Virus record (IMG/VR): IMGVR_UViG_3300040856_000019
Span: 1 to 26,893 of that record
DNA length: 26,893 nucleotides
Source: a virus
Reading direction: 5' to 3' (one strand)
A program made the translations under genes and the position numbers. Each line of letters begins with the position of its first letter. Positions within the stretch are counted from its first letter, which is position 1. Positions 19,307 to 25,821 of this stretch are shown piece after piece. Below the pieces are notes generated by a model. It saw only the letters and a program-made list of their open reading frames with translations, was not told where the DNA came from and made no database searches.

Positions 19307-19327
19307 TTCTAGCTCTCACTAAGTAGT

Positions 19328-19349
19328 GGAGAGGCCCGAAGGCCTCCCC
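19328..19349 (-). terminator. Stable UUCG-loop hairpin after the capsid gene (partial terminator or processing site)
   Basis: On the minus strand a 9-bp, GC-rich stem (19349-19341 with 19336-19328, one G-U pair) closes a UUCG tetraloop, among the most stable RNA hairpins. It lies 9 bases after the capsid stop. No run of U follows, so it is unlikely to be an efficient intrinsic terminator. It may protect the capsid mRNA 3' end or reduce read-through into tail genes. Confidence 0.7.
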
Positions 19350-19357
19350 TAAATATT

Positions 19358-20413
19358 CTAGGCTGCGTTGTATACCGCAGTGAATAGTGCTTCTGGGCGA
19401 AGAATCTTCCGGCCATACAACTGCATCCCACGGACGATGTCCGAGAATGTTTCTGGTGAGCGGAAGCTCTCTGTTTTCGCAAGCTGTTGTGCAGATGCGA
19501 TTGCAGAGTCGTGACCAGCAACAATAACACCGAAGTTGGTTTCTGAACCACCTGATGCTGTAGTGTCTGGGCCTGTACCAATGTATGGTAGGTTGTTTGA
19601 TTTGTAGACACGTAGTCCACGAACCAAGTTGCCGCCCATACGTCCGTTACGGATCTCATCACCGCCGCCGAAATCACGATCAACGAATTTTGAATCTTCG
19701 TCCATCAAGATCTCGATCATTACCGGATCCAATACAACCCAACGACCATCTTGGTCTACGTTTGCTTGGTCCATCTTACGAGCGATACGGTTAAGTAGTG
19801 CTAGTGGTGATGTGATAGCACCTGCACCACCGCCGGCTGCTACTGGGATAGATGTAACTTCGGCAGAGCCACCCAAGTCAGAACCACCGAAATCAGTGAT
19901 GTCTAGCTTGTTTGCTGCCAATAGTTCGTCTGCGTCAGCGTTTGTGTCGGCTTTTGTGCCGTTTGCCGCTGTACGACGTGCCCAAGAACCTGCGCCACCA
20001 GCCCAACCAGACAAGTAACCCAATACTTCTGAGTCAAATGTGTCGGCTAGACGATAAGCTGCACGGTCTGTAGCAAGATCCATGAAGTTCACATGCGAAT
20101 GTGCGGCTTCGATATCGTCGATGGCGAACTGGAAGTAGTTCGCTTGGTCAACGACCATAGTGAAGTCTGCGTCATTCAAGTCTTGAGTCGCTAGTGTTGT
20201 ACCACGAGCGTAGTTCGAGACTGTGATCTCCGGTTCTTTGATGATACGGACTGAGTCTCCGTACTGAGAAATCTCACCGGTATAGTCAGTGTTCGTGATG
20301 TCTTCTACGACAGACGTCTTCCTGAATTCCTTCTGGACTTTTTGACTATAAATGACCGGGGAAAAGTTCCCATTGGGTAAGTTGGCGTAACCCGACGCCT
20401 TTGCGAATGCCAT
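19358..20413 (-). CDS. Major capsid protein
   Basis: The protein has 351 residues from the ATG at 20413. This start is chosen because an AAGGAG ribosome site lies 8 bases upstream; a TTG ten codons earlier lacks one. The N-terminus is MAFAKASGYANLPNGNFSPV, followed by 'YSQKVQKEFRKTSVVEDITN' and 'GDSVRIIKEPEITV', which I recognise as the opening of the capsid proteins of marine P22-like podoviruses. The later 'GRWVVLDPVMIEILMDED' and 'LRVYKSNNLPY' blocks fit the HK97-fold core. It follows the scaffold gene, as expected, and has its own promoter and long leader, consistent with a need for high and separately controlled expression. The C-terminus ends 'ILRPEALFTAVYNAA'. Confidence 0.93.
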   Translation of the reverse strand: MAFAKASGYANLPNGNFSPVIYSQKVQKEFRKTSVVEDITNTDYTGEISQYGDSVRIIKEPEITVSNYARGTTLATQDLNDADFTMVVDQANYFQFAIDDIEAAHSHVNFMDLATDRAAYRLADTFDSEVLGYLSGWAGGAGSWARRTAANGTKADTNADADELLAANKLDITDFGGSDLGGSAEVTSIPVAAGGGAGAITSPLALLNRIARKMDQANVDQDGRWVVLDPVMIEILMDEDSKFVDRDFGGGDEIRNGRMGGNLVRGLRVYKSNNLPYIGTGPDTTASGGSETNFGVIVAGHDSAIASAQQLAKTESFRSPETFSDIVRGMQLYGRKILRPEALFTAVYNAA

Positions 20414-20421
20414 AGTTTGTT

Positions 20422-20427
20422 CTCCTT
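20422..20427 (-). promoter_or_regulatory. Strong ribosome binding site of the capsid gene
   Basis: The minus strand reads AAGGAG, 8 bases before the ATG at 20413. It decides the capsid start over a TTG at 20443 that lacks such a site. Confidence 0.9.
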
Positions 20428-20438
20428 CTAATGGCGAT

Positions 20439-20461
20439 AACAAAAGTCACAAGCGTGACTT
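20439..20461 (-). terminator. Terminator-like hairpin just upstream of the capsid ribosome site
   Basis: On the minus strand AAGTCAC (20461-20455) pairs perfectly with GTGACTT (20450-20444) around a 4-nt loop, followed by TTGTT. The stem is only 7 bp with 3 GC pairs, so termination would be partial. It ends 12 bases before the AAGGAG ribosome site. Confidence 0.5.
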
Positions 20462-20591
20462 GCTAAGGTCAGATAGAAGAACGAATTAAGGGCAGAACGA
20501 CTCGTAGGGTGCGTTTCGGGTGCTAACCGTCCACGGGCCTACAGGCTCTGGTAGTCTTAGCAGTTCTTGCTTCTGTTTTGGGATTGGTTTG

Positions 20592-20621
20592 GTAGAGGTA
20601 GACCTAGTTAGGTGGCTCTAC
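20592..20621 (-). other. Leader hairpin with alternative outer pairings
   Basis: On the minus strand GTAGAG at the 5' side can pair with CTCTAC at the 3' side, while its GTAGA can instead pair with an internal TCTAC. An inner ACCT/AGGT stem with a 4-nt loop is common to both. Confidence 0.5.
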
Positions 20622-20633
20622 ACTGCCTAATAG

Positions 20634-20649
20634 ATTGCATATCTGCAAT
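20634..20649 (-). promoter_or_regulatory. Inverted repeat just downstream of the capsid promoter
   Basis: ATTGCA and TGCAAT form a perfect 6-bp inverted repeat around 4 bases, about 9-24 bases after the predicted transcription start. It could be a protein operator or a 5' mRNA hairpin. The sequence alone cannot decide. Confidence 0.4.
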
Positions 20650-20664
20650 TCTTATTGCCCTATT

Positions 20665-20694
20665 ATTATACCACCGTTAGGTGCTTATAATCAA
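20665..20694 (-). promoter_or_regulatory. Sigma70-type promoter for the capsid gene
   Basis: On the minus strand TTGATT (20694-20689, four of six matches to the -35 consensus) is followed after 18 bases by a perfect TATAAT (20670-20665). Transcription would start near 20658. It lies just after the scaffold stop in the only long intergenic gap. Confidence 0.75.
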
Positions 20695-20703
20695 GGGGTG
20701 TGT

Positions 20704-21483
20704 TTATCGGGCACCGCCCGACAAGTCATACTGGAAATCACCTCGTTGGATGGATTCCAGAATAGCTGCCTCGTTCTTCTCATACTCTGCCGAAGACATC
20801 TTGCTGACTTGGCTTTCTGAGAAACGGGCACGTCCGCCTGAGGATGGTGTAGATCCGCTAGTACGTCCGACTGAACGTGCGGCATCACCCTGAGTGGCTC
20901 GTGTTCGTTTGATACCTTTGTCTGCCTTGTACAGGTCAATAGCCCGTGCGGCAGAGATAGGATCATTTGCGTTCTTATATAGAGCGTCTTGAATCCATGT
21001 TGGCTGCTTCTTAGCCCAGTCATGGAATGTTGGATCTTGGCGAATACGGTCAAAGTCTGGATGTAGCTTCTTGAGTGCCATCTCAGCCTTCTCTCGGGTG
21101 ATGTTCTGTTCCAGCTTTTTCAAGCCTTCCATCTTCTTCTCACCCATCGCCAGTGCTTCTAGTGAACGCTTCTGTGCGATTGTATCGATAATTGATGCAA
21201 CATCAGGATACTTACGCATCCACTCCGCTACCTCTTTCTCTGACTTAGGGAAACGGATTTGTTGTTTAGTAGCCGACTCTAGCTGTGACTTCATTGCCTG
21301 AAGTTCACGGTCTTTGGTTGCCATCTGGTTCTGCATATGACGACGAAGATCGCCGTAACGCTTTTTGAAAGATGCCTCGTCTGAGTCAGTAGGTGCTGCT
21401 TGCGCCTCTTGTGTCATCTCTTGCGAGTATGACTTATCTTCGGTATCGAGTTCGTCACGATACCCACCACGGTACTTAGCCAT
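20704..21483 (-). CDS. Scaffolding protein
   Basis: This 259-residue, highly charged protein has a polar acidic N-terminus (residues 1-35), a coiled-coil region rich in Gln/Lys/Glu (about 40-75), a helical middle with 'KEVAEWMRKYPDVASIID' and 'KLHPDFDRIRQDPTFHDWAK', and a Ser/Gly/Arg-rich C-terminal part. The 'HPDF...W...QP' middle is what I know from podovirus scaffold proteins, which fill the procapsid and leave before or during DNA packaging. It lies directly before the capsid gene, the expected order. The start has a perfect AAGGAG site six bases upstream. The stop lies inside an inverted repeat (TCGGGC and GCCCGA) that has no U-tract. Confidence 0.88.
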   Translation of the reverse strand: MAKYRGGYRDELDTEDKSYSQEMTQEAQAAPTDSDEASFKKRYGDLRRHMQNQMATKDRELQAMKSQLESATKQQIRFPKSEKEVAEWMRKYPDVASIIDTIAQKRSLEALAMGEKKMEGLKKLEQNITREKAEMALKKLHPDFDRIRQDPTFHDWAKKQPTWIQDALYKNANDPISAARAIDLYKADKGIKRTRATQGDAARSVGRTSGSTPSSGGRARFSESQVSKMSSAEYEKNEAAILESIQRGDFQYDLSGGAR

Positions 21484-21489
21484 GATTTT

Positions 21490-21495
21490 CTCCTT
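21490..21495 (-). promoter_or_regulatory. Strong ribosome binding site of the scaffold gene
   Basis: The minus strand reads AAGGAG, 6 bases before the ATG at 21483. It matches the capsid site and contrasts with the weak sites at coupled junctions. Confidence 0.88.
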
Positions 21496-21512
21496 GGGGG
21501 GCCGAAAAGTAG

Positions 21513-21526
21513 CCGACGTTAGTCGG
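21513..21526. other. Short inverted repeat in the 72-base gap before the scaffold gene
   Basis: CCGAC and GTCGG form a 5-bp stem around a 4-base loop. No U-tract follows directly on the minus strand, so I do not call a terminator. The gap (21484-21555) otherwise holds only the scaffold ribosome site and a C-run. Confidence 0.35.
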
Positions 21527-21555
21527 GGTTTTGCGGGTAGCCCGTGCCACGCAAA

Positions 21556-24500
21556 TTATCGAATGAAAGCAATCTTCGGTGTGCTTTTCATTGCATAACT
21601 CATAGTCTCGACGGTCTCTTCTTCCTCGTCGTACTCTGGTATTTCTTCTTCTGTTATGACTTCGGCAATCTCTACTTCATTGCCTTCGGGTGTTTCATAT
21701 TCCTCTTGAAGCTCCCCTTCCCCTTCTTCGGCGTAATAGTCCTCATCCGATATCTCGGCGTCCTCAATTCCTTCGCCATAGGGTTCTTCGTCATAGTAAA
21801 ATTCTTCGACTTCATGGATCTGTCCCATCGCATGTAGCGACATCAGACCTGCTTTAGCTTCCATCATCATTTCTGATATGTGCTTCAGGCCGTGCCACTT
21901 AACTACGTCGGCGGGAAGTACATACTCACCTTGTGAAAGCATCGCAGGGATATCGTCTCGGACATTCTCTGCGTCTGATCCTAGTGGTATTTCGTTTCCT
22001 GATACTGGGTCAGTGCCTACGATCATGCCGGGCATAGAGCCTTCGCCACAGCTACCGTCGCATTCACCGCCACATCCACAGGGCATTCCGCCGTGTGCAG
22101 CTTTCATTATGCCATCCTCTTCTATTGCTTTTTGTACGGCTTCGCCCCGAGCTTTCTCGTAGGCCGACAATCTGCCGTCGTCGTTTAAGTCTGCTTTGCT
22201 AAAGTCTAACTTGAAGACATTGTCAGCCATCTCCTTACCTTCTACGGTGCGGATGCCTTTTTCGGATTCACCTTCCGTAAGGCCGCCTTTGGAGAATTCT
22301 TCGGGTGCTTCTTCGGCTGTAGCTAGACCCGCCGCACCAATTAGTCCTGCGGTAGGTACGCCTATGTCTCTAACTGCACCTGCATAAGTCTTCCAAGAAG
22401 GGGCACCACCCGCACCTAACTTCTCAGCCTCGGCAATAATCATATTACGGGCACCGTCAGGAGTAAGCTGCTTGTCGTCTACCATGCGCCAAATAGCTTC
22501 TGTGCTTTGTATGAAAGACTTGTTGTTCTTCAGGGTCTGGGGGAATAGTGTTCGTAGCTGTTCCCAAGAGATAGACTGCATCTCACGAGGTAGTACGTCA
22601 CGTAGTTTTGCAGCGTCTACGGTAGCATCAAAGTATAAGCCATAGCTTCCAGCCATACCTGAGTCAGCCTTACCGTCATTAGACCAACGTGCAGGGTTAC
22701 CCTTAACATTAGCACCATTAAGACCGTGGGTGACTTCTACTGCACTCGAGCCAAGAGGACGTAATAGACCTGCCGCAATCTGGTGTGTATCGACTGTAAC
22801 ATCTACAGGGCTGTCTGGGTTATAGATGTTGTTGAAGAAGTTACGGACTTTATGATTTCCGCCTAGCTCTGGTGAGATAGCTTTGATTGAGCCGTCTCCC
22901 TCTAGGATGCGAACCGCCTTTGCAATGTCGCCGAACCCTTGGTGTACAAGTGAGGCAGGTTCGCCAGACTTAGAGACAGAATACCCTAGAATATCGCCTT
23001 CGGGGCTAATCTCACGATAGTTCTTACCGAAGTGCGCCTCATCATAAGCACGTAGCCACATGGCCTTTTGCTCTGGAGTTTCTAGATCACCCCAAGACTT
23101 ACCTTTGATTTGCTCAAGGACTGCGCCATTTTTACCGTCTTGGAAAGCAGTATTGCCTTTTTTCTTACGAGACGCTGGGACAGTTGTAGTAACGTCATCC
23201 ATCGCTTGTGTCCAAGGAGCATTCGGACCAAGCTCGGTATGGTGTTTAATTAGACGCTCCGCCAAAGCTACGTTCTGGAACCAGTCTTTTTGTGGAGACA
23301 TAACAGCAAGAACGCCTGATGTCTTTTCTGGAAGGATACCAAAACGCTGCGCCAAACCATTTGCAATACGGTTTGCTCCTCGATACCACTGCGCACTGTC
23401 TTCGGCTATACCGAGTTTGTCCGACATGTCGTATAGGCTTACGATGTTATCGGTCATCTGGCCTTTAACATTAGCAGCCGTTTCTGCAACGTCCTCTGAC
23501 CACAGGTTCTTTAGGCCGGGATAATTCTCTGCCATCATGGCAAAGTTCTGGTCCATCTTAGTATTACCAGACATCAATGCATCAGTATCACTGATCATAG
23601 AACCAGTCTGTAGATTGTCGTCTCGTACAGTTTCCGCAGGAAGACGGGTATCCACTCGATTATTAGGACCACCCGCTAACTCAAAGGCTTCTTCTGTTTG
23701 AGTTGCGACTTGGGCAGGTACAGTTTCTGGCTGAGACTGCGTGTATGGTGTACGAGGCATGTCGCCGTATACACCCGCTGCTTTGTTAATAGACGCTACT
23801 TCGTCGTCTGTCAGAACACGGTTCACTTTCATATTACCGCTGATCAACCATTCCCCAGTCATATTAGGGTTAGTCTTATAGCGGTAGAATCCACCAAAAG
23901 GTATTTGGTCAGTGATATGTGCCGTCTTAGATTCAGGCTGCCCGTTCTTCATAATACGAGCATTAGAGTCCGCTACAGATTGCCAATCTACATCCGCTGG
24001 CATTTCTACTTCGGCCCAGACTGTGTCTTCAGCCCGTAGACGCTCGAAGTATTCTATCTCGCCTGTCTTACGGTTCTTCTTACTAAATACGTTGTTAGCA
24101 CCTCTAGCTTGTAGATCTGCCGCTTGCTGCGCTGTGATCTTATGCGTAGGTCCAATGTGTGTAGCTAACGGAAGATCACCGGCATGCCAGCCGGGACGAT
24201 AGGCTAGGTTACCAATAGAGGACATAACCTTGCCTGTCTTAGGATCTATTTCGCCAGAAATGGCATCAATCCATTCACCTACAGTCACACCCGTTTTAGA
24301 ATCGACATAAAGAGGGAACAACTCGCCGGGACGATTGGGATCAATTCTAAACAGCTTGTATGCTTTAACTGTGTTCTTGAAGTTCGTGTTGCTGGGTTTT
24401 GGTGCAACATATACTTCCTCTGCCAATGTCTCGACTGAATCAGGAGTCACTGGCTCTTCTGCCATCTTTTTCTTTGAGAAGGCATTACCACCCATAGAAC

Positions 24501-25821
24501 CAACGGTATTCGGGTCCATATTCTCGGCAATGTCAGCAAGAGTATCTAAGCCTTTCTTGGCTCCTTTTGCTGCGAGTTTTGTGAGGGGGAAGGCTTCGAT
24601 TGCAGAGAGTCCACCTTCGACCACCGCAAGTCCCATTCCGAGTTTGTCATCGGTGTTTCTGGCTCTTTCAAATGAGTCCTTTGCTTCTTCACCCCCAAAA
24701 ACCAAACCGGCAGGAGTAAAATCAGCAAGACCAATACCATAACTTCCATCAGTCGCATTTGGATTACCTGTGAACCTTTCAGCCATATCTATGGCACCAC
24801 GATCATCCATACCTGTTAGGTTAGAGATGAACTCACCAATCTTGTACTTTGCTTTCTCACGGAGTGTAGGCTCATACGGCATTACTACTGAGCCGTCGCC
24901 TAATGGTTGATCTTCTTCTATTTCTTGATTGCCTTCGACAGCCATACCGCCGTTGGCTAGGCCCAGCGCATCACGTACCGATTGTAGGATGCTAGTCTCT
25001 ACTCGACCTACTTCTGTGTTGTATTTCTGACTTGTTCCTGCGCCCTCAATGCCAAATGCAGACTGCGTCTGATTATCCACGCTAGAACGATCCCGAGTAG
25101 TAAATTGAGAAACAGCATCGTCAGTGGCATTGGATATCCGTGGGCTAGGTGTTGCGGCAGTGTCGGGTGTATATGATGGGGCTGCGTTAGGACTGGCACT
25201 TGAAGCGACTGCTACCTCTTCGTCTGAGGCAGGTGCTACGTCATCCTCTGTAACCACAGGAGACGCTAGTCCAGATGATAGCTCTTCAATAGTTCCGGGC
25301 CGACTATCTACGACTGTCACGTTGTGTGACATCGGAGACACTCTCACTGGTTCTTGTCCGGGGAAGCCTGAATAGAATGTGTGGCGGCCTATTGTGAGAG
25401 GCTTCTCTCCAGAAAAGTCAGTACCCCGTTTCTTGGCAATGTTTTTATTGAGGAAGAAGGTACGTCCGCCCGAGGCGTCTTCGCCTACATTCAGGTACTC
25501 GTAGAATTCATACTTGCCTGTCTCTAGATCCTCATCAGGTACAGGGATTGCATCCACGCTGCCATACTTACCAATAGGCTCAAACTGACCTCGTTGGTTA
25601 ATGACATCTTCTACAGAATTGGGAAAACGATCAGACGATAGTCGGTTGAGAATAACGCCTCGAACTGCGTTACGTCCTTCTTCGGACTCGGTACCAGCTT
25701 CCGCCCATACCAACCGCTCAATCATATCTACTTCGTTTTCCGTAAGCTCTGTGATGTTCTCATCTTCAGGATTATACGGAGCCTCAGACATGATGCCGAT
25801 TTGATCGTCTTCTGATGCCAT
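21556..25821 (-). CDS. 1421-residue multidomain protein with SleB/CwlJ-type wall hydrolase domain
   Basis: Residues 28-152 match the SleB/CwlJ (Hydrolase_2) peptidoglycan hydrolase domain: Glu41 in 'VWAEAG', 'AVRGVILNR' (52-60), 'GQF' (78-80) and 'IGRHTFY' (144-150). A long Ser/Ala/Thr/Pro/Asp linker follows. Residues of about 497-680 hold a block with 'YRPGWHAGDLPLATHIG' of unknown function. Residues of about 764-1115 hold a second large block with 'GVLAVMSPQKDW' and 'KVRNFFNNIYN...VTVDTHQ', resembling a conserved phage domain (DUF7178-like as I recall). The C-terminus has an EF-hand loop (1211-1222), a cysteine cluster (1248-1258), a 'DDIPAMLSQGEYVLPADVV' segment and an acidic tail. Start follows the preceding stop directly (TAG-ATG). 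Position between portal and scaffold suggests a virion protein, perhaps delivered at entry to open the wall; the other domains' roles are unknown. Confidence 0.82.
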   Translation of the reverse strand: MASEDDQIGIMSEAPYNPEDENITELTENEVDMIERLVWAEAGTESEEGRNAVRGVILNRLSSDRFPNSVEDVINQRGQFEPIGKYGSVDAIPVPDEDLETGKYEFYEYLNVGEDASGGRTFFLNKNIAKKRGTDFSGEKPLTIGRHTFYSGFPGQEPVRVSPMSHNVTVVDSRPGTIEELSSGLASPVVTEDDVAPASDEEVAVASSASPNAAPSYTPDTAATPSPRISNATDDAVSQFTTRDRSSVDNQTQSAFGIEGAGTSQKYNTEVGRVETSILQSVRDALGLANGGMAVEGNQEIEEDQPLGDGSVVMPYEPTLREKAKYKIGEFISNLTGMDDRGAIDMAERFTGNPNATDGSYGIGLADFTPAGLVFGGEEAKDSFERARNTDDKLGMGLAVVEGGLSAIEAFPLTKLAAKGAKKGLDTLADIAENMDPNTVGSMGGNAFSKKKMAEEPVTPDSVETLAEEVYVAPKPSNTNFKNTVKAYKLFRIDPNRPGELFPLYVDSKTGVTVGEWIDAISGEIDPKTGKVMSSIGNLAYRPGWHAGDLPLATHIGPTHKITAQQAADLQARGANNVFSKKNRKTGEIEYFERLRAEDTVWAEVEMPADVDWQSVADSNARIMKNGQPESKTAHITDQIPFGGFYRYKTNPNMTGEWLISGNMKVNRVLTDDEVASINKAAGVYGDMPRTPYTQSQPETVPAQVATQTEEAFELAGGPNNRVDTRLPAETVRDDNLQTGSMISDTDALMSGNTKMDQNFAMMAENYPGLKNLWSEDVAETAANVKGQMTDNIVSLYDMSDKLGIAEDSAQWYRGANRIANGLAQRFGILPEKTSGVLAVMSPQKDWFQNVALAERLIKHHTELGPNAPWTQAMDDVTTTVPASRKKKGNTAFQDGKNGAVLEQIKGKSWGDLETPEQKAMWLRAYDEAHFGKNYREISPEGDILGYSVSKSGEPASLVHQGFGDIAKAVRILEGDGSIKAISPELGGNHKVRNFFNNIYNPDSPVDVTVDTHQIAAGLLRPLGSSAVEVTHGLNGANVKGNPARWSNDGKADSGMAGSYGLYFDATVDAAKLRDVLPREMQSISWEQLRTLFPQTLKNNKSFIQSTEAIWRMVDDKQLTPDGARNMIIAEAEKLGAGGAPSWKTYAGAVRDIGVPTAGLIGAAGLATAEEAPEEFSKGGLTEGESEKGIRTVEGKEMADNVFKLDFSKADLNDDGRLSAYEKARGEAVQKAIEEDGIMKAAHGGMPCGCGGECDGSCGEGSMPGMIVGTDPVSGNEIPLGSDAENVRDDIPAMLSQGEYVLPADVVKWHGLKHISEMMMEAKAGLMSLHAMGQIHEVEEFYYDEEPYGEGIEDAEISDEDYYAEEGEGELQEEYETPEGNEVEIAEVITEEEIPEYDEEEETVETMSYAMKSTPKIAFIR

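Follow-up and report, generated by a model that had tools for sequence, protein, structure and literature searches.

What is the function of the long non-coding stretch that lies directly before the capsid gene of this phage? The window (the whole stretch of DNA that we analyzed, 26,893 nt) is a piece of an HMO-2011-type podovirus, a marine phage, and its nearest named relative is Roseobacter phage CRP-3 (84% DNA identity over scaffold and capsid). The late genes are on the minus strand and run from the portal end through a 1421-aa protein, a 259-aa putative scaffold protein and the capsid protein to the tail genes. The part that concerns us is laid out as follows.

20704 to 21483, minus strand: putative scaffold protein, 259 aa, with a conserved basic motif, FKKRYGDLRRH (residues 39–49), that opens a predicted long helix
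20414 to 20703, minus strand: the gap before the capsid gene, exactly 290 nt, bounded by the upstream stop at 20704 and the capsid ATG at 20413
19358 to 20413, minus strand: the 351-aa major capsid (coat) protein, with a match to PHROG 267 major head protein (E = 2e-60)

The CRP-3 homologue of the capsid protein is annotated ‘putative coat protein’, and a Pfam search of the scaffold and capsid proteins gave no match above cut-off. We infer from its position and helical make-up that the 259-aa protein is a scaffold. According to the initial annotation, the gap was the sole long non-coding stretch in the operon. The 290-nt gap is real, but it has company: a second gap of 72 nt (21484–21555) lies 5′ of the putative scaffold gene, and a third, of 51 nt, lies 3′ of capsid. 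Downstream of the capsid stop, the window has a GC-rich UUCG hairpin (19307–19357), and several relatives (L029, L069 and L076) have a hairpin with a T-run, so that capsid may be transcribed almost as a unit of its own. The annotation of P22 places a stem-loop at the equivalent position after its capsid gene. Between portal and scaffold, the 1421-aa protein (21556–25821) has an endolysin-like N-terminal stretch (PHROG 14642), and CRP-235 has a far shorter gene in its place.

Close homologues all retain the pre-capsid gap, at 243 to 391 nt, and in a wider set of 231 loci it is mostly 145 to 390 nt, the typical size in HMO-2011-type and related Rhizobium phages. Gaps of 17–64 nt are found only in distant relatives, such as CHOED, MQM1, the SAR11 phages and phages with 28%-identical capsids. 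No small open reading frame in the gap is conserved on the strand. The gap contains a promoter and a ribosome-binding site.

20665 to 20694, minus strand: capsid promoter from scan and homologues; TTGATT (20694–20689), a spacer of 18, and TGG-TATAAT (extended −10; TATAAT at 20670–20665)
near 20658, minus strand: predicted transcript start, placed from the promoter position
20422 to 20427, minus strand: capsid Shine-Dalgarno, AAGGAG

A promoter scan alone performed at chance level (4 such sites found vs 4.0 expected). The pattern TTG-N17/18-TGnTAyAAy is nevertheless present in 38 of 39 distinct homologous gaps, which supports the earlier proposal that the capsid gene has its own promoter. The promoter sits in an inverted repeat (20665–20700; AUUAUA..CACC UAAC GGUG..UAUAAU over the spacer and −10), and four relatives (L042, L059, L069 and L070) have a long near-perfect dyad centered near the −10 box (fold z −4 to −6), which in L059 is followed by a T-run; this dyad is a candidate regulator site or terminator for read-through transcripts. 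In six relatives with gaps of about 356–391 nt (L057, L058, L062, L066, L067 and L075), some 85 extra nt upstream of the promoter hold another promoter-like box together with a hairpin, GGGCUGUCCC..GGGGCAG, that is conserved among them. In ctYwJ313 the leader is split by a gene annotated as an HNH endonuclease between scaffold and capsid (L091, 2210–2779).

The leader that follows the promoter was described initially as long and structured, and folding agrees: it folds better than its shuffles in the window (z −2.6), and among 45 homologous leaders the median fold z is −2.7, with 39 below −1.5. Comparison of 39 divergent gaps revealed a repeated unit, a helix with an asymmetric internal loop, one side of which is 5′-NYAC and the opposite side CC, between conserved closing C-G and G-C pairs. 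Often two such units stand in opposite orientation and build a dyad-symmetric duplex, both strands of which read 5′-CUAC-stem-CC. The capsid leader has one copy in hairpin A and two, oppositely oriented, in a core module.

20592 to 20621, minus strand: hairpin A, GUAGAG-[CC]-ACCU AACU AGGU-[CUAC]-CUCUAC, the first loop-element copy, seen in most of 47 leaders
20475 to 20574, minus strand: long-range helix P1, which closes the core by pairing AGAAG (20574–20570) with CUUCU (20479–20475), found in homologues by eye
20476 to 20566, minus strand: core module (covariance model R1, 58 bits) with outer stem UAAG/CUUA, stems P2 (CAGA/UCUG) and P3, and an inner hairpin
20554 to 20551 with 20492 to 20491, minus strand: core loop 1, 5′-CUAC / 3′-CC
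20537 to 20536 with 20511 to 20509, minus strand: core loop 2, 5′-CC / 3′-CAC
20428 to 20475, minus strand: hairpin D, a tentative assignment, adjoining the Shine-Dalgarno (stem 20461–20444)

Hairpin D has a possible extra loop copy (GAC-C...G-CC), and its sequence varies among lineages. In the core, a MAFFT alignment of 28 sequences was scanned for complementary columns without a structure, and the pairs that it returned included those of P2, P3 and the outer stem; RNAalifold recovered P2 and P3 unaided. Covariation in the core alignment (A1) was 0.541 vs 0.203 when shuffled; with partners slid, it did not exceed 0.129. Against a tree-simulated null, the top 5 of 3828 column pairs all belonged to the proposed structure, three of them at E<0.05. 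The hairpin A alignment (A7) gave 1.004 vs 0.297 shuffled; all A7 rows and part of the A1 seeds were chosen by a pairing rule, so that percentages of paired positions are inflated and circular, and searches of held-out loci (below) are the clean test. Position, promoter and structure with compensatory changes are thus all conserved among homologous gaps, as the RNA control element suggested at the outset predicted. In four leaders (L085, L088, L092 and L094) the inner hairpin of the core ends in a conserved CGGCCA loop with a self-complementary GGCC, and RNA dimerization through kissing of these loops is conceivable.

When R1 was run over the loci, it returned the capsid leaders and, in addition, weaker matches exactly 5′ of the scaffold gene. 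In the window, this second copy occupies the 72-nt gap, in which we found no promoter.

21486 to 21547, minus strand: second copy, GGG-[CUAC]-CCGCAAAA-[CC]-CCGAC UAAC GUCGG-[CUAC]-UUUUCGG-[CC]-CCC (model R2, 49.3 bits, E = 1.6e-11)
21495 to 21490, minus strand: AAGGAG of the scaffold gene, which follows the second copy

The pre-scaffold element was seen in nearly all phages examined, either as a single unit (UUGGG-[CUAC]-CCGUAUACGG-[CC]-CCCAA and then GGA in L003) or as a dyad (ACUGG-[CUAC]-UCAUC-[CC]-CCUA...UAGG-[CUAC]-GGUGG-[CC]-CCAGU in L249). A strict motif rule recognized it in 119 of 202 pre-scaffold stretches; the same rule matched 79 of 3290 random windows and, among other Shine-Dalgarno–ATG starts, 6 of 133. 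Covariation in the scaffold operator alignment (A4) was 0.472 vs 0.176 shuffled, and with a tree-based null the top 4 of 1596 column pairs were proposed pairs. The scaffold copy is near enough to the Shine-Dalgarno to affect initiation, its outer strand stopping a median of 13 nt (9–16 nt) before the ATG. The capsid core, in contrast, is too far from its ATG for simple blocking unless hairpin D, which lies in between, or refolding takes part, because it ends 44–123 nt upstream.

Loci left out of building R1 (capsid core) and R2 (scaffold operator) served as the held-out test. R1 matched 79 of 100 such loci (508 kb). For 64 of these matches the capsid start had been mapped; 63 lay directly before capsid and the remaining one on a scaffold operator. 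The held-out capsid matches, when aligned with R1, again showed covariation (0.503 vs 0.244 shuffled), although this alignment leans to the model. R2 matched 93 of 99. In eleven named phage genomes (CRP-3, HMO-2011, CRP-13, CRP-345, CRP-2, CRP-235, CRP-207, RHph_N3_13, phiM6, ctYwJ313 and HTVC104P), R2 had a single strong site, before the scaffold gene, and in the window, CRP-3 and HMO-2011 the sole R1 site was before capsid. Neither model found a strong third site in whole phage genomes. Because the sites are confined to scaffold and capsid, they constitute a two-gene regulon rather than a general intergenic feature. These data demonstrate an RNA whose structure is supported by covariation, which is confined to two genes in whole phage genomes, and which is widely distributed.

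The element occurs in hundreds of phages related to the HMO-2011 type, and its two sites are distributed differently. By eye, each of the SAR11 phages HTVC103P, HTVC104P and HTVC115P carries the element twice before scaffold but not before capsid; in Aeromonas phages MQM1 and 1233 and in Vibrio phage CHOED it is present once before scaffold and is likewise missing before capsid. Because these phages carry the element only before scaffold, the scaffold site is probably the older, and the capsid leader would be a later addition in the HMO-2011/Rhizobium branch. In the lineage of L004, L072 and L077, CC has become AC both in the scaffold operator and in the capsid core (L004 and L072) and also in hairpin A (L072 and L077); since the three form a single lineage, the change counts as a single event, and AC is present in CHOED as well.

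A single trans-acting ligand that reads all sites is supported by these sequences, because the invariant loops sit in freely changing stems at every site and because one lineage has AC for CC before both genes. We think it rather probable that the capsid leader belongs to an undescribed family of cis-acting RNAs, that the element immediately 5′ of the putative scaffold gene is another member, and that the two form a shared translational operator, a two-site post-transcriptional regulon recognized by a single phage protein, for which free scaffold is the likeliest candidate. Both the nature of the ligand, a phage protein and probably scaffold, and the sign of control are inferred. Autoregulation by coat or scaffold, as first suggested, is still the most plausible function, now supported by the second copy before the scaffold gene; the binding of a ligand is putative.

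The scaffold protein itself has features that would suit such a role. Its homologues, found in this phage clade only, are annotated ‘hypothetical protein’ in relatives (family phrog_13678), and a search of the PDB with the predicted scaffold model gave no significant fold match. KKRYGDLRRH is its sole strongly basic invariant patch, K41, R42, Y43 and D45 are retained in 17 scaffolds, and a long helix is predicted to begin at the patch. In Pseudoalteromonas phage Slicky01, the gap before the scaffold homologue is 25 nt and has no operator, so the protein motif does not require the operator, which in Slicky01 is either lost or was never present. In L089 (1563–2357) and other Rhizobium phages, scaffold homologues are annotated ‘topoisomerase II domain-containing protein’, a label that looks like a misannotation.

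In the mechanism we propose, free scaffold would bind as a dimer through the invariant basic motif and a coiled coil. With the motif at the start of the helix, the dimer would present two basic arms, and the dyad operator two equal half-sites. Ligand bound at the scaffold operator would sterically block ribosome entry, and ligand bound at the capsid leader would slow translation of coat, so that synthesis of both proteins would track procapsid assembly. The capsid's own promoter, with the post-gene hairpin or terminator-like stem of several relatives, would provide coat in excess of scaffold while the feedback is shared. This full version, in which a scaffold dimer reads the dyad-symmetric NYAC/CC element in the scaffold and coat messages and RNA feedback sets the scaffold-to-coat ratio by a novel mode of recognition, is a tentative proposal, and we would not be surprised to see it fail.

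The ligand of a shared operator could instead be the coat protein, with free coat repressing translation of itself and of scaffold. Coat-protein translational operators are well known in the ssRNA phages MS2 and Qβ, where a start-site hairpin bound by a capsid protein dimer would act alike, and the coat is conserved across the same phages (56–84% among distant members). The RNA phages differ in that here the RNA motif is another one, the phage is a tailed dsDNA phage, two genes are involved and the ligand is putative. We consider coat unlikely as the ligand, given that SAR11, Vibrio and Aeromonas relatives have the operator before scaffold and not before coat. Slightly less likely still, in our estimation, is an operator whose ligand senses the state of infection, be it a protein of the host, some other protein of the phage or a small molecule. 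The compact loop pair could be an aptamer, yet none of our results favors this; the element matches no Rfam riboswitch or ribosomal leader and appears confined to these phages: R2 had no matches in 190 alphaproteobacterial genomes under strict filters that may lose weak ones, and R1, with strict filters in 96, had one spurious match, antisense within a coding gene. The breadth of hosts (SAR11, SAR116, Roseobacter, Rhizobium, Vibrio and Aeromonas) also favors a ligand encoded by the phage.

Two further readings strike us as improbable. A ligand-gated ON switch would have the pyrimidine-rich 3′ strand of the outer helix pair either with its own 5′ strand or with the capsid Shine-Dalgarno. Predictions do place most of that Shine-Dalgarno in pairs (median unpaired 0.25), the partner being this strand in many leaders, and outer-helix pairs 10–97 and 11–96 stay purine-pyrimidine while inner pairs flip. 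However, complementarity to the Shine-Dalgarno is no better than in shuffled leaders (median z 0.11), and only in 13 of 39 does the best anti-Shine-Dalgarno stretch fall within the module strand, for which coverage alone would give 3.3. We rejected a sequestering switch on the ground that the pairing is suggestive but its complementarity is without excess over chance. The other reading, just as improbable to us, is an element of transcription or stability (an antitermination RNA, an RNase-processing site or a 5′ stabilizer) that makes capsid mRNA abundant. It would fit a structure that starts just past the capsid promoter and the hairpins 3′ of capsid in several relatives, but not a second copy inside the operon, in the promoterless 72-nt gap beside the scaffold Shine-Dalgarno, nor the lack of conservation of the terminator-like hairpin of the window. 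An intrinsic-terminator attenuator was also rejected; terminator-like matches are at chance level, and the U-run of the window is absent in other lineages. Lastly, a small RNA acting in trans, which, like a simple mRNA stabilizer, had been offered initially and is not favored now, is barely credible despite its own promoter and some 245 nt of highly structured RNA, since the structure reaches the Shine-Dalgarno in every lineage with no conserved terminator between leader and gene and the motif is duplicated beside a second gene.

The proposed shared operator, read by a phage protein and probably by scaffold, is of a known kind, autogenous translational control, but we did not find this RNA family or the two-gene layout described. 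The absence of a recognizable family, remarked on from the start, holds in Rfam 15 at gathering and permissive thresholds (best sub-threshold E = 2 in the window). In ten homologues Rfam found just an unrelated tRNA gene in L068 (3678–3750, 54.6 bits), within the scaffold–capsid gap and upstream of the RNA module. Open-access literature on this phage group and on RNA motifs, as searched, contained no description of the NYAC/CC element and yielded no named 3D RNA motif with which to equate its loop, and the HMO-2011-type papers searched were silent on promoters, on non-coding RNA and on any head scaffold. P22 is a close parallel in biology: a dsDNA phage with a related head type and the same order of scaffold beside coat, whose scaffold synthesis has post-transcriptional feedback. 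The P22 scaffolding protein is said, after King, Casjens and Wyckoff, to be under autogenous control. P22 differs in that the gap before gene 8 is 13 nt and genes 8 and 5 overlap, whereas here an RNA element precedes both genes; P22 was rejected as a carrier of the element, there being no room in its gaps. T4 gp32 and RegA are translational repressors, and they too are phage proteins that tune translation of phage genes by binding leaders, but they are non-structural, have different RNA targets and have no motif in common with the element here. The bacterial ribosomal-protein leaders in Rfam are likewise short structured RNAs near a Shine-Dalgarno under product feedback, but do not match the element even at permissive thresholds. 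Structured RNAs of marine phages such as manA and wcaG are associated with metabolic genes of cyanophages, with none described at capsid genes in that work (PMC2864571); they have no Rfam match here.

Outside P22, it is largely unsolved how dsDNA phages balance scaffold and coat, in set ratio and in time. In HMO-2011-type and Rhizobium phages, a compact RNA element singles out precisely the scaffold and capsid genes, and in their SAR11, Vibrio and Aeromonas relatives scaffold only. It would add an RNA family to Rfam and offers a hint at the function of the ‘hypothetical’ phrog_13678. HMO-2011-type phages are reported to be dominant and broadly distributed in the ocean (PMC9038755). If our reading is true, the scaffold-to-coat ratio of dominant marine phages would be set by RNA feedback coupled to procapsid assembly.
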